Source: Parabacteroides distasonis (GTDB lineage: Bacteria; Bacteroidota; Bacteroidia; Bacteroidales; Tannerellaceae). Taken from it: a stretch of DNA of 64,000 bases. Where the stretch lies: contig SUXM01000002.1 in NCBI GenBank assembly GCA_015060925.1, positions 1-64,000 on the forward strand, in the 5' to 3' direction. Numbering within the stretch: the stretch's first letter is position 1; each line of letters opens with the position of its first letter. The position numbers and the translations under genes were made by a program. The notes under the pieces were generated by a model. The model was given only the letters and a program-made list of their open reading frames with translations. It was not told the DNA's origin and ran no database searches. Shown here in pieces: positions 20,028 to 30,160 of this stretch.

Positions 20028-20750
20028 TTAAAAAACAAAGCCCCACTTACGAAAGATCGCCTTTGCATGATCCAACCGATCTTTAGATAATGGTTCAACT
20101 CCTTTTAATGGATAATCAATTCCCAATGCCTCATACTTATGTACACCCATTGTATGATAAGGGAGTAATTCGATCTTTTGAATGGTTTTATAGGAACTAA
20201 GGTATTGTGCCATTCGTTCCAAGGAGACATCCTCATCTGTCAATCCGGGAACTAAGACGTGTCGAATCCACGTAGGGATTTGGCGATGTTCTAATTCTTC
20301 TAAAAAAGCGAAGGTATTTTTTTGCTCTACACCGGTTAATCGGGTATGCAAAGAGGAGTCAATGGTCTTGATGTCTAATAAAACTAAATCAACATAATCC
20401 AACACTTCCAAAGCCCTATCCGAACAGATATAACCGGAAGTATCCAATGCCGTATGGAGGGCATTCTCTTTACAAAGGCGGAAAAAATCCTTTAAAAAAA
20501 GTGGTTGTAAAAGCGGTTCACCTCCTGTAACCGTCACACCTCCTTTAGCAATAAAATTCTTATAGCGTAAAACCTCCGTAAGCAATGCCTCCGGCTCCAA
20601 CAAATAAGGTGTTTCACGATTCACCTCCCACGTATCCGGGTTATGACAATATTGACAACGGAGCGGGCAGCCTTGCATGAAGACTACAAAACGAATTCCG
20701 GGACCATCAACGGTCCCGAAACTCTCTAAAGAATGTATCTTTCCAACCAA
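20028..20750 (-). CDS. pflA: Pyruvate formate-lyase activating enzyme
   Basis: A 240-residue radical-SAM enzyme that installs the glycyl radical on PflB. The [4Fe-4S] cysteines are Cys28, Cys32 and Cys35 in GCPLRCQYCHNPDTW, followed by GGVTVTGGEPLLQ and LLDIKTID. It starts 4 nt after pflB on the same strand, so the two are an operon. The enzyme is oxygen-sensitive, and the genes immediately downstream encode the peroxide-reducing AhpC/AhpF. Confidence 0.96.
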   Translation of the reverse strand: MVGKIHSLESFGTVDGPGIRFVVFMQGCPLRCQYCHNPDTWEVNRETPYLLEPEALLTEVLRYKNFIAKGGVTVTGGEPLLQPLFLKDFFRLCKENALHTALDTSGYICSDRALEVLDYVDLVLLDIKTIDSSLHTRLTGVEQKNTFAFLEELEHRQIPTWIRHVLVPGLTDEDVSLERMAQYLSSYKTIQKIELLPYHTMGVHKYEALGIDYPLKGVEPLSKDRLDHAKAIFRKWGFVF

Positions 20751-20754
20751 TGGA

Positions 20755-22995
20755 TTATAAAGATTGATTGATTGTACGAGAAATCACATCCAACTGCTGT
20801 TCACGTGTCAACTTCACGAAGTTCACAGCGTAACCTGATACACGAATTGTCAACTGCGGATATTTTTCCGGATGTTCCATTGCATCTACCAACAATTCTT
20901 TATCGAAGACATTCACATTCAAATGCTGGCCACCATCCGGAGTGAAATAACCATCCAATAGGCTAACCAAGTTGTTGATTTGAATATCACGTTCTTTTCC
21001 TAATGTAGCAGGAGAAACAGCAAATGTATATGAAATACCATCATGTGCATGCTGGAACGGAAGTTTTGCCACAGAAGCCAAAGCAGCAACAGCACCTTTT
21101 TGATCACGGCCGTTCATCGGATTCGCACCCGGTGCAAACGGAGTTCCGGCAGGACGACCATCCGGTGTTGCCCCGGTCTTCTTTCCATACACCACATTAG
21201 AGGTAATCGTTAAGATAGATTGTGTTGGCGTTGCTTTACGATAAGTCTGATGCTGACGCAAATATTCCATGAACTTTTCTGTAATATCTACAGCAATGCT
21301 ATCTGTACGTTCATCGTTATTTCCAAAAGGAACATATTCGCCTTCACGTTCAAAGTCTACCGCCAAACCACGTTCGTCACGGATTACTCTGACCTTCGTA
21401 TCACGGATAGCCGCCAACGAATCGGCCACGATTGACAATCCGGCAATACCGGTTGCACGGATACGTTCCACATCTCCGTCATGAAGTCCCATCTCAAAAG
21501 CTTCGTATGCATATTTATCATGCATGTAGTGGATTATCTTCAACGCATTGATATACACCTTCGCCAACCAACGCATCATCTGTTCATATTTTTCCATGAC
21601 TTCGTCATAATCCAAATACTCACTGGTGATTGGTTCAAAACGCGGTGTTACTTGTATACCAGATTTTTCATCTCGTCCACCATTGATTGCATAAAGCAAA
21701 CATTTTGCCAAGTTAGCACGTGCACCGAAGTATTGCATCTGTTTACCAATCTTCATCGGAGAGACACAACAAGCAATACCGTAATCATCCCCATAGTCCG
21801 GACGCATCAAATCGTCATTTTCATACTGGATAGCTGATGTATCGATCGAAACCTTCGCACAGAACTTCTTCCAGTTTTCCGGGGCATTGTTAAACCAAAG
21901 AACGGTCAAGTTAGGTTCCGGAGCCGGGCCTAAATTATATAAAGTATGCAAATAACGGTAAGAGGTCTTTGTCACCAAAGAACGGCCATCCACCCCTTGG
22001 CCTCCCAATGATTCAGTCACCCAAACCGGATCACCTGAGAATAAATCATTGTATTCCGGTGTACGCAAGAAACGGACAATACGCAATTTAATGATAAATT
22101 GATCGATCAACTCCTGTGCCTCTTCCTCTGTTAATATTCCGGCTTCAATATCTTTTTCAATGTAAATATCCAAGAAAGTAGAGGTACGACCTAATGACAT
22201 GGCTGCTCCGTCTTGGTCTTTTACAGCAGCCAAATAGGCCAAATACAAGAACTGGACAGCTTCACGGGCATCTTTTGCCGGACGAGTCACATCAAAGCCA
22301 TACGCTGCACACATTTTCTCAAATGATTTTAACGCTTTGATCTGATCCGTCACCTCTTCACGGTTACGGATAATCTCTTCAGTCAATTCCTGAATATCCA
22401 ACCGTTTTTGGAAACGTTTCTTCTCCTCAATCAAAATCTGTGTTCCATACAAAGGCACACGACGATAGTCACCAATGATACGGCCACGACCATAGGCATC
22501 CGGCAAACCGGTGATAATAGCTGAACGGCGAGCCGCCAACATCTCATCAGTATAAGCTGAGAACACACCTTCGTTATGAGTCTTTCTATATTTTGTAAAG
22601 ATTTCTTTGGTCATCGGATCCAAATGATAACCATACGCCTCCAAACTGTTTTCCACCATACGGATACCTCCCTTCGGGAAGATACCACGTTTCAATGGAG
22701 CATCAGTTTGCAAACCGACAATCACTTCGTTTTCCTTGTCAATATAACCCGGACCGTATGTATCAATACTCTGAGGAAGTTTTGTTTCAGCGTCGTAAAC
22801 CCCTTTTTCTCTTTCTACTTTAAACATCTCGGTCAACTTATCCCATACCTTCTTTGTCTTTTCAGAAGAAGATACAAGGAACGTATCGTCACCATCGTAA
22901 GGTTTGTAATTGTGTTGGATAAAATCCCTTACGTTAATCTCTTTTTTCCATGTTTCCCCTTTAAACTGCGCCCAGTTCTCGTTTTCAAATCTCAT
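20755..22995 (-). CDS. pflB: Formate C-acetyltransferase (pyruvate formate-lyase)
   Basis: A 746-residue glycyl-radical enzyme that splits pyruvate with CoA into acetyl-CoA and formate. The catalytic Cys-Cys pair is in GIACCVSPM (near residue 410), and the radical glycine is Gly721 in [10 protein letters not shown] close to the C-terminus. [22 protein letters not shown] and [10 protein letters not shown] are typical of PFL rather than diol dehydratases. Its product acetyl-CoA feeds pta-ackA at 8-10 kb. A TACCTTTG -7 box lies at 23038-23031. Confidence 0.97.
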
Positions 22996-23345: not shown

Positions 23346-26300
23346 TTATTTCACGATAGCTTTAACAGCAGCTTCACCTTCAACCTTAACAACTACAACA
23401 CCTGCAGGAACAGCGATAGTAGCGTTGTCAGAAGCGATGATTGTGTTAGCTACAGTCTGACCTAAGATGTTAGCGATAACCACTTTCTTACCAGCAGCAC
23501 CGGCGATTGTTACGTTACCGTTACCAGCGATTACCTGAACACCTGCAGCAGAGATTTCTTCATTTGCAGTTGCTTCATCTTCAGTTGGAGCAAAGTAGAA
23601 GATACCTGATTGACCAATTAATTCTACAATAGCACCTAATTCATTTTCATGATTATCAATTGCATTTTCTTCGATAACTACAGGAACACCGTTATGAACT
23701 TTAACCCAAGAACCTTCGAATGATGCAACATTATCACATACTGATTCTAACAAGAAACCTTCGCTTCTACCATCTTCAAGTTCAGGTTCATCTTCAAGTT
23801 TACGGAATGACCAAGTATGAACTGTATTAACATTACCATTAAGAACATGTGTATCAACATAATCAGATGTTAACATATCAGGATCAAGAACTTTCTTTTC
23901 ACCAGAATTATTCTTAATAGTCATGATATCTTCAAATTCAACATCAGAGTTCAATACATACAAGTATTCTACATCACCTACAACCTGGTGGATAGCTTTA
24001 ACGAAACCAAGACGAGTATAAGCATTGAATTTATAAAGATCTGCATTTGCCATCATGTTAGAAGATAATCCTACTGAATCCTTCAAGTTAACCAAGAACC
24101 AACCATAAGTATAACCATTGTAAGCATCTACGTGAGTTTCATCTGCAGCTTCAGCAGCTTCAATTGAACTCCAGTAACCGTGAGTCTTTGTCTTACAGAT
24201 TGCACCATCAGCAACTGAGTCAACACGTACACCTAACAAGTAACGTTGCATATATTCATAGTCATAAACTACTTCATCAACATAGAATGCAGCACGAGCT
24301 TCACGATCGTTAACTGATTTGTTTTCAATTCCTAAGTAAGCAAAGTCAGGATTGATATCTTGGATTGCACTTACATTTGATGCATCACGAAGGTCTTCGA
24401 ATAAATATTCGTTCTGACCATTGAAAATCTTAATATTACCATTCAAATCAACTGCATAATCTTCATCGATATCAATATATTGATTTACCTGAATACCAGC
24501 GAAGAAGAATGCACTAGCTACGTCATTTGGTTCATCTTCTAAGTTCTGTGTACGGATTGTACCCATGTTTGCACCTGATTCAACTTCAGCTTTTGTCCAA
24601 CCATTTTCAAGTGCCAAATCATCACTTTCTGGATTATTGATGTTTACTAATACATAAGCATCTTCTGTTGTATCATTTACAAATTGGTCAGCTTTCAAAT
24701 AGAAGTAAGCTGGATGTGCATCAATACCATCAATTTCAGATTCTGGAAGAGCTCTGTAATAATAACGACCATCATCTTCCTTAACTAATGCTACATAAAT
24801 ACGATCATTGTCAATTAAGTTCTGATCTTTAACTTTGATTACGTATGCCTTTCTTTCTAAACCTGGTAAACCTGCAGCAGCATAACCGAAGCTATTTGTA
24901 ATAACACCGCTATTATCCGGAAGAACAGCTTCACCAATTTCAAAAATAGTTTCACCATCTTCAACAACTTCAAGATCTTCACCTTCAACATGTTCAATGA
25001 ACAAATCACCATTCAAGAAATTATTCAACTGAATTTTGAAGTTATTTTCTAAACCATTATTCAAGAAATCTTCAGGTAACCATAAGTAACCATGATGTTC
25101 ATCTTCTAAAGCAGCTTCATCTTCTACAGCTGTAAATGCCATATGATCTTTATACCAGAATTTATTACCATCTTGTACACTAGCATTGAACCAACCATTA
25201 GATGCATTGAATCCATTATCATAAACACCTTCTGTACGATCAATAAACATCAAATCACCATCAGCACAAGTGTACAACTGACCTTCAAATACCATATCGC
25301 TATATTCACGGTTAGTGATTCTCACATACTTGTTAGCAGCAGAGTTATCAGCATGATCACAACCAAGTTGTTCAACAACCCACATAGTAGCTGGCATATC
25401 ATTGTAATCCTGATTACGAGCTTCTGTATCATACATAAGATGTGTTCCCATGTTATGAACAATACTCATACCTTCTCCACGATTCATTGACCAATTTGTA
25501 CCAAGACCATTTCCTGCAACATTGATGAAATAAAGACCGCTAGGAACTGTTGTACGTGTCAAATATGCAAACGGACGTTCAATTGAAGAGATAAGATCAA
25601 ATTCTCCTAAACCATCTTTAGCTACAGTGAACACTTCACCCAAACCATTGATTTCAGCTTTACCTAATGATACAGTCTTTGAACCATTATAATTATAATC
25701 ATTAACTAAAGTATTTGCTTTAGAGAATTGAGCAATAACAAATGATTGAGTACATTTTGAAGCAGCCCAAGGTGTTCCATCTTCCCATTCCTTATCACTT
25801 TGAACAGCAGCATTCAACGGTTCAATCAACAAACTATCGTTTGTAGGGAAATAAGTAGCACGGAATACATAGCGAGCTTTCATATAGTCGTTATCTGATT
25901 CACGAGGTGTTCTTACGTTAAATTTAACTGCCGGAGAAGCAGATGGCTTCTTAGCTTCTTCTTCGTAACGTACTGTATCCACTAACAAATAATCTTCTGT
26001 ACCTGTTACATTAAAAGAAAGATAATAGCTATGTTTATTAATACTATAGTTAACTTCACCTTCTGTAAATGACATACCATCAGTATTTAAAGTATTAAGT
26101 ACCTCAAGTGTTTTTTTCATGTCAGACCAGAAAAGAAAATCTACAGCTGTGAATTCATTTTCTACAAATACATCATCACCAATCAATTCTTCACTTAAAG
26201 TAAATTTGAAAGATGAATCATTTTCTTTATCATCAGCATCCATACGTGTGTTGAATTGTTCTGCTGTCATGTGGAATGGCATAGCAACAACCGGACGTAA

Positions 26301-27134
26301 TTGTAATGCTTCATCAGCAATATTTTCCAAACGAGATCCAGCGTCTGCAGAAGAGATAACCTTTGCTTGAACTAATTTACCAGCAGTCTTTCTATATTGG
26401 AAACCATCCTCAGACAATTTAACTCTCAAGTCATCATCATTAGCAGCCTCATCACCAAATGCCAAATACATCACTTGATCACTTTCTTGATTGTGCAAAT
26501 ATGAATAAACACGTTCAAAATCAAAGAAATCATTAGCAACTTGGTTTACAGTATACCATGACCATTCAGCAACGCCATCACGCAATTCAGAAATCACTTC
26601 GTTATCAAGAACAGAATGATCGAAAGACAATGTATAACCAGTTTCTTTGTTTACATAAGTAAAGTAACCACCACTCACACCATCAGGTTTGCTATACTTA
26701 ATAGTCCACAAAGAAGCATTCAATTTTGCGCCATAGTTATCAATTGTTCTAGCTTTAGGAACAGCACGCAAATAAATCTTACCTGTTTCGTAATCACGTT
26801 CTTGAATCAAAACATAAGCACCACGACCTTTAGCGCCTTGTTGCAATTCATCATCGATTGCCAATTCTAACTGATACAATTTAGTATCATCAACGAAATT
26901 GATAAACTTATCAAATGAGCTACCATTCATCAATGTACCTTCACCTAAATCTGCATCAAAATTCTTCATAGGTACAAAGGTAGAAGTTGATGCGTCAAAA
27001 ACTTCCTCTGAACCATTCAAAGTACCATAAGTACGATAAGCACCCTGCGGAAAACTAGAAGTCTGCCAGTTTTGAGCTGAAACAGAACCTGCCATCAACG
27101 CAAGTGCCAAAAGTGTAGAAAACTTTTTGTTCAT
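23346..27134 (-). CDS. Giant secreted surface protein with DUF6383-like C-terminal domain
   Basis: A 1262-residue acidic protein from the start MNKKFSTLLALALMAGSVSAQ, a clear signal peptide; the frame opens 14 codons earlier but those residues spoil the signal sequence. The long middle is rich in Asp, Glu, Asn and aromatic residues, with repeated local patterns such as YFYLKADQF and SFVIAQFSK, and I find no enzyme motif. The last 70 residues (from about GVQVIAGNGNVTIAG, through KKVVIANILGQTVAN, to the end VKVEGEAAVKAIVK) resemble DUF6383 of Parabacteroides and a T9SS sorting domain. It is likely a surface-layer or large surface glycoprotein; D-S/T sites for Bacteroidetes O-glycosylation are plentiful. 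The start faces an invertible promoter. Confidence 0.8.
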   Translation of the reverse strand: MNKKFSTLLALALMAGSVSAQNWQTSSFPQGAYRTYGTLNGSEEVFDASTSTFVPMKNFDADLGEGTLMNGSSFDKFINFVDDTKLYQLELAIDDELQQGAKGRGAYVLIQERDYETGKIYLRAVPKARTIDNYGAKLNASLWTIKYSKPDGVSGGYFTYVNKETGYTLSFDHSVLDNEVISELRDGVAEWSWYTVNQVANDFFDFERVYSYLHNQESDQVMYLAFGDEAANDDDLRVKLSEDGFQYRKTAGKLVQAKVISSADAGSRLENIADEALQLRPVVAMPFHMTAEQFNTRMDADDKENDSSFKFTLSEELIGDDVFVENEFTAVDFLFWSDMKKTLEVLNTLNTDGMSFTEGEVNYSINKHSYYLSFNVTGTEDYLLVDTVRYEEEAKKPSASPAVKFNVRTPRESDNDYMKARYVFRATYFPTNDSLLIEPLNAAVQSDKEWEDGTPWAASKCTQSFVIAQFSKANTLVNDYNYNGSKTVSLGKAEINGLGEVFTVAKDGLGEFDLISSIERPFAYLTRTTVPSGLYFINVAGNGLGTNWSMNRGEGMSIVHNMGTHLMYDTEARNQDYNDMPATMWVVEQLGCDHADNSAANKYVRITNREYSDMVFEGQLYTCADGDLMFIDRTEGVYDNGFNASNGWFNASVQDGNKFWYKDHMAFTAVEDEAALEDEHHGYLWLPEDFLNNGLENNFKIQLNNFLNGDLFIEHVEGEDLEVVEDGETIFEIGEAVLPDNSGVITNSFGYAAAGLPGLERKAYVIKVKDQNLIDNDRIYVALVKEDDGRYYYRALPESEIDGIDAHPAYFYLKADQFVNDTTEDAYVLVNINNPESDDLALENGWTKAEVESGANMGTIRTQNLEDEPNDVASAFFFAGIQVNQYIDIDEDYAVDLNGNIKIFNGQNEYLFEDLRDASNVSAIQDINPDFAYLGIENKSVNDREARAAFYVDEVVYDYEYMQRYLLGVRVDSVADGAICKTKTHGYWSSIEAAEAADETHVDAYNGYTYGWFLVNLKDSVGLSSNMMANADLYKFNAYTRLGFVKAIHQVVGDVEYLYVLNSDVEFEDIMTIKNNSGEKKVLDPDMLTSDYVDTHVLNGNVNTVHTWSFRKLEDEPELEDGRSEGFLLESVCDNVASFEGSWVKVHNGVPVVIEENAIDNHENELGAIVELIGQSGIFYFAPTEDEATANEEISAAGVQVIAGNGNVTIAGAAGKKVVIANILGQTVANTIIASDNATIAVPAGVVVVKVEGEAAVKAIVK

Positions 27135-27226
27135 AATATAAAAAAAATTAATTAATAAATAGTATATAATTCTCACGTATATTCAGTCAATCACTGTCTT
27201 TCAACGTATTAACTTAATTTTGGTAT

Positions 27227-27262
27227 AATGACCAGAAATAACGAACGGTTTTTTTGGTCATT
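27227..27262 (+). repeat. Left inverted repeat of the surface-protein switch
   Basis: 36 bp: arm AATGACCA (27227-27234), core ACGAACGG (27241-27248), seven T, then arm TGGTCATT (27255-27262). The arms are exact reverse complements of each other. Confidence 0.85.
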
Positions 27263-27369
27263 TTTTTTGAGTAAAAATGCTTCGTACAACAAAAGGGGTA
27301 TTTTCGTCCTAAAATCGTTATCCGATTGATAAGAAAGGGAATAGAAAAGAAAAATATTTATGAAAAATA

Positions 27370-27400
27370 ATTGTAGGAATAAAAACTATATGTATTTTTG
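27370..27400 (+). promoter_or_regulatory. Promoter inside the surface-protein switch, facing away from the gene
   Basis: ATTG (27370-27373), a 19-nt spacer and TATTTTTG (27393-27400). Transcription would start near 27406, just inside the right repeat. In this orientation it leads into non-coding DNA and would stop at the terminator at 27736-27775. Confidence 0.7.
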
Positions 27401-27409
27401 CAGAGTGAA

Positions 27410-27445
27410 AATGGCCAAAAAAACCGTTCGTTTTTTTTGGTCATT
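27410..27445 (-). repeat. Right inverted repeat of the surface-protein switch
   Basis: 36 bp, the reverse complement of the left repeat with three mismatches. Arm AATGGCCA (27410-27417), seven A, core CCGTTCGT (27424-27431), arm TGGTCATT (27438-27445). Confidence 0.85.
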
Positions 27446-27600: not shown

Positions 27601-27735
27601 TAAAAAAGTAAAAAACGGGCTTTTTCTCCTCAAATGACGTTTTTCGGCTTCCCAAAGTGTTTCTTTTTCTTAAAAAGTAGCTCTATATTTATTAAGGTAT
27701 AAGGAATGTTTTTTGCTTCAGGGGATAAAAAAAGT

Positions 27736-27775
27736 CCTTGGGCAAGGAATAAAAATTCCATACCCAAGGTTTTTT
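27736..27775. terminator. Bidirectional terminator downstream of rprY
   Basis: CCTTGGG (27736-27742) pairs with CCCAAGG (27763-27769), with an inner stem GGAAT/ATTCC, and is flanked by A7 on the left and T6 on the right. It would stop rprY transcription on the minus strand and any OFF-orientation transcript from the promoter switch on the plus strand. Confidence 0.85.
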
Positions 27776-27798
27776 ATTACATAGGTATCTGCCTCAAA

Positions 27799-27875: not shown

Positions 27876-28607
27876 TTACAACACCTGGATTCCCTCTTCA
27901 CGAGCGGTATCTTCGTTAGAAGGGGTTATCAGTTTGTAACCTTTCCCGTGGATATTGATGATTTCAATTCCCGGATCGTCTTTCAACAGTTTACGTAACT
28001 TCGTAATGTACACATCCATGCTGCGTGCATTGAAATAGTTATCATCCACCCAAATGGTCTTCAACGCATAGTTACGTTCCAAAATCTCATTGGCATGCGC
28101 ACAAAGCAGACTTAATAATTCACACTCTTTGGTTGTCAACTTCGTTACCTTGCTGTCAATCGCCAATGTCTGTTTCTGAGTGTCAAACAAGAAGTTTCCT
28201 AACTTATAGAAAGGAATATCTTTCATTTTCTTTCCTTTTACACGGCGAAGGATAGCTTCGATACGAAGCAACAGCTCTTCCATGCTGAAAGGTTTTGTCA
28301 AATAGTCATCCGCACCGATCTTGAATCCTTCCAAAATATCTTCCTTCATCGTCTTTGCAGTAAGGAAGATGATTGGAATATCAGGGTTGATGGAACGGAT
28401 TTCCTGTGCCAACGTAAAACCATCTTTCTTCGGCATCATCACGTCCAACACACAAAGGTCGTACTTTCCTTTGGTGAACCCTTTATAACCGGCTTCTCCG
28501 TCAGAGAAAAGATCAGCCACATAACCCTTTGCCTGTAAGTATTCTCTTAACAGCATACCTAAGTTCTCATCGTCTTCACAAAAGAAGATTTTTAGTTTTT
28601 CTTCCAT
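27876..28607 (-). CDS. rprY: Response regulator RprY
   Basis: A 243-residue OmpR/PhoB-type regulator. The receiver domain has the acidic pocket CEDDEN (10-15), the phosphoacceptor Asp55 in LCVLDVMMP, and the conserved Thr and Lys in FLTAK and TKPFS. The C-terminal winged helix (about 130-235) has LTTKECELLSLLCAHANEILER and ARSMDVYITKLRKLLK. It lies 2 nt after rprX, the cognate kinase. B. fragilis RprXY is a membrane-linked two-component system; its inducing signal is not evident from this sequence. Confidence 0.92.
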   Translation of the reverse strand: MEEKLKIFFCEDDENLGMLLREYLQAKGYVADLFSDGEAGYKGFTKGKYDLCVLDVMMPKKDGFTLAQEIRSINPDIPIIFLTAKTMKEDILEGFKIGADDYLTKPFSMEELLLRIEAILRRVKGKKMKDIPFYKLGNFLFDTQKQTLAIDSKVTKLTTKECELLSLLCAHANEILERNYALKTIWVDDNYFNARSMDVYITKLRKLLKDDPGIEIINIHGKGYKLITPSNEDTAREEGIQVL

Positions 28608-28609
28608 AA

Positions 28610-30160
28610 CTAACTTTTTATAAGAGGTAAAGTAATAATAAATTTTGTTCCTATATTGCCGGGACCATTCTCGGCACGAATCGAGCCTTTATGGTCTTCC
28701 ACGATTTTCCTAACGTAAGCCAAACCTAACCCGAACCCTTTCACGTCATGCACATTGCCTGTCGGCACACGGAAGAAACGGTCGAAGATCTTCTTCAAAT
28801 ACTCTTTTTTGATTCCTATACCGTTGTCTTCAATAGAGACCAACAACTTTCCATTCTCATTCCAAGTGCGACACATCAATGTCAGAGGAGTTTCCATCCG
28901 CCGATACTTGACAGCATTGTCCAACAGGTTAAACAAAACATTCGTGATATGCATCTCATCGACATAAATCGTTGACTCTTCTGCTTGCAGGTCAATATCT
29001 ATAGAGCCGTTATACTTTTCTACTTTCAACGTAAAAGTATTGGCCACCGTAGCCAAAAGATCATTGGCATCCACCTCCTTCAACTTAAGCGCAGCCTTCT
29101 GACGTTCAAAGAGCGACATCTGCAAAACCTTCTCAACCAAGAAACTCAACCGTTTGGTTTCATCATTGATCACTCCGGAAATATGCTTAAAGACATCCGG
29201 GCTTTTCGTTATATCCGAATCCTTCAACATCTGAGCCGCAAGTGAAATCGTTGAGACCGGTGTCTTTAACTCATGCGTCATATTGTTAATGAAATCATTC
29301 TTCATCTCTGATAGCCGCTTCTGTCGGAATACGATATAGATGGTAAAGATGAACGTCACCAACAATATCAACGAGAAGATGATTGACGGCACGATAAAGG
29401 TCACAGAACTCGAGATATAATCCCCCTTTGTAGGAAAATAAACCTTCAAGAAATTTTGTTTTGAAGGAGGATCATTGGGAAATAAAACCTGCGTGATGAC
29501 ATCCGTCACTGGAGGTATCTCCCCACTCTGATATACCACCTTTCCATCTTTATTTATAACAGAAAAGATAAAAGGCAGGTTCAAACCATTGTTAATAAAT
29601 TCTGATTTTAAGTAATTATTCAGCTTTTTAAAGTCAACCCTCTCCTCAATAGGTCTTAGGTTAGCCGTATGCAAGATACTTAAGATAACCTCATTGACCA
29701 ATCCACTTTGGTAATGATAACGATGCTTCAAAGTCTGTTGCAAATCTTTGGACGTACTCACAATACTGTTCGCCTTTTTTTGGCTAAGTGATGACATCGG
29801 TTCGATTTTACGAGTCCGGATGTCACTATGGAATTCGATTTGCTCCACAGTGCCATCGGACTTCGTAAACTGCATCTTGTATTTCTTTTCAGAAATAATC
29901 TCATTTCCTAAACCAGATTGCCCACTCTGATATAGAAAATTATTTGCTTCATCACGACTTAAATCCTCTTCCAAAAAACGACGGGTCTCATCTAATTCCA
30001 AATTTTTGGAAACCTGATGCATCGACCGTTTGACTGTCTCGTTAAACTGTTCACTACTTTTCTTAAGAATAATACTCACATACTGAACCTGTAAAAAGAG
30101 CAATCCGGCAAATGCAAAAGCCATCACCACCGCAAGTAACCATATCGTTGACTTTTTCAT
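28610..30160 (-). CDS. rprX: Sensor histidine kinase RprX
   Basis: A 516-residue membrane kinase. Transmembrane segments lie at about residues 7-28 and 256-280 and enclose a periplasmic sensor region. The phosphoacceptor His is in FINNMTHELKTPVSTISLAAQ. The ATPase domain shows the N box NVLFNLLDNAVKYR, G1 EDNGIGI, F box FDRFFRV and G2 GFGLGLAYVRKI. It forms a two-gene operon with rprY. The sensed signal is unknown. Confidence 0.92.
   Translation of the reverse strand: MKKSTIWLLAVVMAFAFAGLLFLQVQYVSIILKKSSEQFNETVKRSMHQVSKNLELDETRRFLEEDLSRDEANNFLYQSGQSGLGNEIISEKKYKMQFTKSDGTVEQIEFHSDIRTRKIEPMSSLSQKKANSIVSTSKDLQQTLKHRYHYQSGLVNEVILSILHTANLRPIEERVDFKKLNNYLKSEFINNGLNLPFIFSVINKDGKVVYQSGEIPPVTDVITQVLFPNDPPSKQNFLKVYFPTKGDYISSSVTFIVPSIIFSLILLVTFIFTIYIVFRQKRLSEMKNDFINNMTHELKTPVSTISLAAQMLKDSDITKSPDVFKHISGVINDETKRLSFLVEKVLQMSLFERQKAALKLKEVDANDLLATVANTFTLKVEKYNGSIDIDLQAEESTIYVDEMHITNVLFNLLDNAVKYRRMETPLTLMCRTWNENGKLLVSIEDNGIGIKKEYLKKIFDRFFRVPTGNVHDVKGFGLGLAYVRKIVEDHKGSIRAENGPGNIGTKFIITLPLIKS

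Follow-up and report, generated by a model that had tools for sequence, protein, structure and literature searches.

Fletcher et al. (2007, PNAS) reportedly described a phase-variable family of surface glycoproteins from the symbiont Parabacteroides distasonis, as gathered from the title of that paper and from citations of it. In Bacteroides fragilis, invertible promoters are placed under one global invertase in the available text of three papers (PMC5903667, PMC12632263, PMC8375218); the first of these portrays a single unlinked master recombinase serving many scattered invertible regions, and the third quotes the Mpi repeat as ARACGTTCGTN. Inversion sites have also been detected in P. distasonis, according to the accessible portion of PMC5903667. 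For the phase-variable S-layer proteins of Bacteroides thetaiotaomicron, the part of PMC12118408 at hand gives the repeat consensus CCGTTACCTABVRAGTAAC and an adjoining site-specific integrase. Here, we describe a Parabacteroides locus (the assembly is catalogued as P. distasonis) within a 64,000-nucleotide stretch of DNA (the window), in which positions 27227-27445 constitute, with a probability of roughly 90%, a complete Mpi-type invertible promoter seen in the OFF orientation. As such, it is a further member of a class that is already known, and judging from its sequence it probably switches in living cells.

The candidate switch consists of two 36-bp inverted repeats, one proximal to the gene (27227-27262) and one distal (27410-27445), that match at 33 of 36 positions after reverse complementation and enclose an invertible segment of 147 bp (27263-27409). 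The score of 33 is the best 36-bp inverted match at this spacing in the intergenic region; 100 dinucleotide shuffles averaged 22.4 and never exceeded 26. Each repeat is nearly palindromic on its own and follows a 17 bp + 2 bp + 17 bp layout, with 8-bp mirror-image ends (AATGACCA / TGGTCATT; the inner end of the right copy reads AATGGCCA), A- or T-rich stretches, and a CG-TT-CG center. The central dinucleotide, read on the plus strand, is AA in the proximal site (27244-27245) and TT in the distal site (27427-27428); both are putative crossover points on the basis of the position-wise concordance and half-site markers presented below. A single Bacteroides-type promoter, ATTG (27370-27373)-N19-TATTTTTG (27393-27400), lies within the segment on the plus strand and is directed away from the gene, and the stretch from the switch to the start codon (ATG 27134) contains no gene-facing TAnnTTTG. 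Near-identical promoters face their genes in the paralogues on contigs C24 and C26, the latter of which lacks the site. An away-facing TAATTTTG is present at 27215-27222, outside the invertible segment. The sequence-only reading had proposed the 33-of-36 repeats, their mirror-image arms, the lone promoter facing away from the gene, and the missing gene-facing box, and all of these features were borne out upon direct inspection.

The gene presumed to be under control (23346-27134, minus strand) encodes a 1262-aa protein with a C-terminal DUF6383 domain (PF19910, 102.3 bits). Its likely start is ATG 27134, opening MNKKFSTLLALALMAGSVSA; the listed open reading frame start, GTG 27176, lies upstream. 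By eye, the N terminus (MNKKFSTL...) resembles a signal peptide, and the protein is probably located at the surface. The type IX secretion system (T9SS) sorting domain TIGR04183 was matched below threshold (E 0.021, 14.8 bits vs a cut-off of 23) at the same C-terminal end as DUF6383, and export by this route is a guess. Upstream and on the same strand are a response regulator and a histidine kinase (27876-30160), with a terminator-like hairpin (27736-27769, minus strand) standing between them and the switch. The fold of 27725-27785 on the minus strand reaches -23.7 kcal/mol (z -6.2) and is followed by a T run; a terminator pattern scan missed this hairpin. Searching viral contigs with the neighboring response regulator returned one contig and no lead. 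Downstream of the DUF6383 gene, also on the same strand, a pyruvate formate-lyase-like gene and a radical-SAM gene, the latter probably its activating enzyme, occupy 20028-22995.

Further copies of the site occur in the source genome, as the earlier reading had suggested looking for. Using the pattern TGRCCA-N7-CGTTCG-N7-TGGYCA with up to three mismatches, we located the site at six places with 0-1 mismatches on one strand: the window (contig C5) and five others, on C21, C24, C40, C15, and C26. Of 23 rows retrieved, five were taken as chance matches, all with three mismatches (C8, C9, and C26:29949); the backward control gave three rows. The most informative copy is that on C24. The outer flanks of the C5 and C24 switches are collinear (94.5% identity over 164 bp and 85.9% over 78), whereas the segments between the sites align as reverse complements (blastn 91.8% over 219 bp; 169 of 181 aligned positions), which implies that the C24 promoter faces its gene, encoding a 1401-aa DUF6383 protein. 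When the C5 segment was inverted in silico around both central dinucleotides, identity to C24 rose from 232/331 (70.1%) to 309/347 (89.0%). Half-site markers behave as expected if exchange occurs at the site center, in that TGGCCA/TGGCTA accompanies the segment's promoter end while CGTTATTTC remains beside the gene. One genome thus presents both orientations, OFF at C5 and ON at C24, albeit at two paralogous loci, and inversion of the window segment is strongly supported by way of this paralogue. The earlier proposal that the gene is phase-variable and was OFF in the sequenced cell is likewise supported, with the ON-orientation C24 paralogue standing in for an inverted junction and the OFF assignment read from promoter orientation alone.

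Among the other copies, the C21 switch is OFF and precedes another DUF6383 gene that is truncated at the contig end. For C26, C15, and C40, flank homology places the promoter at the gene-distal end, and the genes themselves fall off the contig. Three of the six site places are at contig ends. The contigs C15, C26, and C40 of this assembly (G000) start or stop inside or beside a switch, as expected of repeats or mixed orientations in assembly. A different DUF6383 gene on C26 (34459-37275; L079:1460-4276) is faced by a near-identical promoter, with no site scoring above 10/18 upstream; by sequence, it appears to be related to the switched genes but fixed ON. In the closest relative (G029), the switch is likewise OFF.

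A candidate recombinase is encoded on a different contig from the switch. The only PF00239 match in the source genome (2.54 Mb, 88% complete, 41 contigs) is a 212-aa protein on C8 that scores 306.5 bits (cut-off 272) against NCBIfam NF009949, "master DNA invertase Mpi family serine-type recombinase," so that the proposed search for an Mpi-type serine recombinase was successful. The protein comprises a resolvase catalytic domain and, near the C terminus, a helix-turn-helix region that weakly matches Pfam models. Residues R7, S9, R72, and R75 are invariant across 14 aligned sequences, and the best solved match is the DNA-invertase 4m6f (E 6.4e-16), with invertases and resolvases as relatives. 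The earlier reading had likened the repeat core to the Mpi site; ARACGTTCGTN is matched exactly in the C24 copy (AAACGTTCGTT), and the window copy (AACCGTTCGTT) agrees with it at nine of its ten defined bases, this being a B. fragilis consensus for which no tolerance is given.

Homologues of the recombinase were retrieved from 38 of the 59 genomes searched, the source genome included. The two same-genus genomes that lack a homologue (G006 and G034) also lack the site; many others have an Mpi-like gene yet no site of the searched pattern. Among the 11 genomes analyzed for switches, only the source genome and G029 have exactly one homologue, while G019 has 3, G022 has 6, and G023 has 5. Among the top 80 matches, out of at least 565, the closest (85%) comes from a water-buffalo caecum metagenome-assembled genome, and the close relatives bearing names are Parabacteroides, including P. 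bouchesdurhonensis; these relatives assign the source organism to that genus. Mpi-like genes with 58-61% identity also appear in records labeled Treponema, Alphaproteobacteria, and Lactococcus (L106, L110, and L119), reflecting either wide transfer or binning errors.

To place the crossover, we compared paired sites across 11 Parabacteroides genomes, a non-random set that includes the source genome, masking the two central bases while seeking each partner site and scoring a switch if the partner reached at least 13/18. Seventeen genomes had a site match; six were left out (G002, G003, G004, G009, G028, and G035), for which one locus each shows paired AT/AT sites (L066, L067, and L069) or no partner (L068, L070, and L072). 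Seven matches were excluded by eye (G021:C3:1288449, G013:C1:1641875, G012:C2:823914 and 826551, G023:C48:28254, and G022:C8:2252906 and 2518778). From a first set of 76 loci, nine were dropped for partners scoring below 13, namely five concordant loci at scores of 11-12 (L203, L206, L207, L208, and L210) and four without a partner (L191, TA; L204, TT; L218, AT; L219, AT). From a second set of 50, L247, at a contig end, lacked a partner and was dropped. Together with L297 and L299, this yielded 118 switches (67 + 49 + 2). Control stretches 500-850 bp away reached a score of 13 once among the 50 loci and never exceeded 12 in the 76, meaning that the threshold is not perfectly clean.

The central dinucleotides agree in inverted register in 118 of 118 scored switches, which would place the crossover at the site center. 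When partners were shuffled within genomes over 20,000 rounds, concordance averaged 53.9 of 116 and never exceeded 74, although such shuffles ignore locus kinship. In a position-wise test on 62 in-register pairs (5 of 67 fell out of register and were excluded), the two central positions were the only variable ones with full concordance (observed 1.00 vs 0.59 and 0.82 expected). A weaker excess was seen at +2.5 (0.94 vs 0.73 expected) and +6.5 (0.77 vs 0.62 expected), and position +1.5 agreed in 87% of pairs, under the 90% expected. This comparative pattern points to the central dinucleotide as the crossover point and fits a serine recombinase, short of proof given that related loci are not independent.

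Several dinucleotide classes coexist. The first 116 switches divide into AA/TT (52), AT (37), TA (15), AC/GT (11), and GA/TC (1), such that 52 have palindromic centers; the source genome has two classes, TT and AT. The sole scored switch with a TC/GA center, concordant at both sites, is at G022:C7:874963-875157 (L267). Flank-homologous locus pairs from G019, G022, and G023 share a class in 36 of 37 cases (0.39 by chance; the exception is L175 GT / L248 TT), with the caveat that these pairs overlap and mix orthologues with paralogues. Class looks stable between related loci. Different classes may mark different recombinases; the source genome combines two classes with a single homologue but is 88% complete. 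At G023:C11:119566-119948 (L239), three sites stand in a row, two in one sense and one in the opposite, possibly forming a compound switch capable of three or more arrangements. Natural dinucleotide classes among Mpi sites are not described in the titles and abstracts of the literature searched, in which subscription papers are thinly covered.

In serine recombinases, the central dinucleotide gives a site its polarity. A palindromic center should lack polarity, and inversion must then be favored in some other way. We tentatively entertain, at somewhat less than even odds, that the dinucleotide is a natural address: under one master invertase, only sites sharing the same two bases could be joined, so that switches would be kept to themselves or to their class, and classes would be retained over species. 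If so, the palindromic AT and TA classes would need another guard against promoter deletion, such as a topological filter. As possible deletion scars, loci without a partner were counted in 3 of 46 palindromic-centered loci and 1 of 30 others, for which we claim no enrichment.

We also examined which genes the switches front and in which state they were captured. Genes of the window type were defined by the N-terminus MN[KR][KR][FI]ST[LF], to which the C24 gene of the source genome was added by hand on the basis of DUF6383, a domain checked in that genome only. By this definition, 78 of the 118 switches front such a gene, with 73 OFF and 5 ON (C24 of the source genome, G012 L230, G013 L299, G021 L222, and G022 L277); an earlier, narrower motif, run on a locus set that differed slightly, found 63 OFF and 2 ON. 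The bias toward OFF has a binomial P of 1.5e-16, a value inflated by locus relatedness, and culture or assembly may also favor one orientation. Mutual exclusion, with one such gene ON per genome, was considered and is not supported: the five ON switches lie in five genomes, but the chance of finding no double is 0.19. A promoter box sits near one segment end in 110 of 118 switches and is absent there in eight. Site-less members with a gene-ward promoter box within ~140 bp include that on C26 of the source genome and L287, L288, L291-L295, L298, and L300. For L284-L286, L289, and L290, gene-ward boxes occur only at 217-624 bp, and L286 has one weak, partnerless site with a score of 13. The remaining 40 of 118 switches have no such N-terminal motif alongside and may control other genes; L262, for example, adjoins a protein starting MMGEEELIRQCMRGVNAARKELYDTYAKQM.

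In the mechanism that we favor, the small Mpi-family serine recombinase encoded on C8 would bind both 36-bp sites, cut at the central 2 bp (TT/AA), and rejoin the segment in reverse orientation. The promoter at 27370-27400 would drive the DUF6383 gene in one state; in the orientation as sequenced, it would point into the intergenic region, where the terminator-like hairpin would probably stop transcripts. The sites, the promoter, its opposite orientation in a paralogue, and the presence of the recombinase are read directly from sequence, and from them we infer that the C8 recombinase is the actor, that the segment still flips, and that orientation governs expression. Because the genome is 88% complete and divided into 41 contigs, a second recombinase could be missing. 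Also weighing against this mechanism, C24 is a paralogue and not the same locus, G029 is OFF as well, and many same-genus genomes with an Mpi-like gene have no site of the searched pattern. A tyrosine recombinase of the Tsr type might work the switch in place of the Mpi-like enzyme: such recombinases drive other B. fragilis switches, including Tsr19 and the large capsule (available text of PMC3090145) and, by the title of a paper cited in the accessible part of PMC12632263, outer surface proteins. A 301-aa open reading frame on C21 was, moreover, named XerC/D-like by eye. Exchange by tyrosine recombinases involves a 6-8 bp overlap that must agree between sites. Among variable positions, full agreement here is confined to the central 2 bp, with position +1.5 already below expectation, and the window site fits the Mpi consensus at nine of ten bases; we regard a tyrosine recombinase as very unlikely.

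The switch could alternatively be degenerate, its repeats persisting while the copy is locked OFF and the gene is silent. The predominance of OFF (73 of 78 comparable switches in the genomes examined), the OFF state in G029, and the three differences among the 36 repeat positions speak for this reading. Those differences fall outside the center, however, and the central dinucleotides are concordant; the promoter and the 1262-codon reading frame are intact; and the sister switch on C24 of the same genome is ON, making a locked copy unlikely. Hardly credible is the reading of the repeats as mere hairpins or protein-binding palindromes, acting as terminator or operator with no inversion, while the gene may use another promoter. 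The near-palindromic character of each repeat would suit it, as would a sigma-70-like match (TTGACT-18-TATACT, 10/12, 27190-27161, minus strand) that faces the gene from between it and the switch. Yet such matches occur at the chance rate in this kilobase (4 found vs 3.3 expected, in a scan that does not model Bacteroides promoters), and C5 and C24 carry opposite orientations of the segment within flanks that remain collinear.

An Mpi-type invertible promoter at this locus adds a probably phase-variable surface protein, backed by similar genes that are mostly silent, in a little-studied Parabacteroides. Phages and the host are what surface proteins of this kind likely encounter. Beyond the locus, purely comparative evidence from the 118 switches indicates which two bases serve an Mpi-type invertase for crossover, and natural sites with different, often palindromic, centers coexist in one genome. 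Engineers exploit the two-base rule through orthogonal serine-integrase sites, as the title of PMC10661055 indicates. It now becomes testable whether bacteria rely on the same rule to keep their switches apart from one another, and what favors inversion over deletion where the center has no polarity.

Compared with described systems, the switch most closely resembles the Mpi promoters of B. fragilis, with which it shares the NF009949 recombinase family, a core close to ARACGTTCGTN, a TAnnTTTG-box promoter inside the repeats, and an unlinked recombinase. The Parabacteroides switches differ in their TGACCA/TGGTCA site ends, in centers that read TT in some cases and AT, TA, GT, or TC in others, and in controlling single DUF6383 genes, whereas the B. 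fragilis examples include seven polysaccharide loci, as far as the available sources report. The glycoprotein family of Fletcher et al. offers a lead within the same genus, as phase-variable surface proteins likened to ours by title and citation and not by sequence. Hin/Gin-type invertases, which use a two-base crossover, belong to the same enzyme family by sequence, as the 4m6f match indicates, but many Parabacteroides sites have palindromic centers. Hin uses a Fis-bound enhancer, according to the accessible portion of PMC3798978. The S-layer switches of B. thetaiotaomicron, to the extent that the source details them, similarly place surface-protein genes after invertible promoters, using a different repeat sequence.
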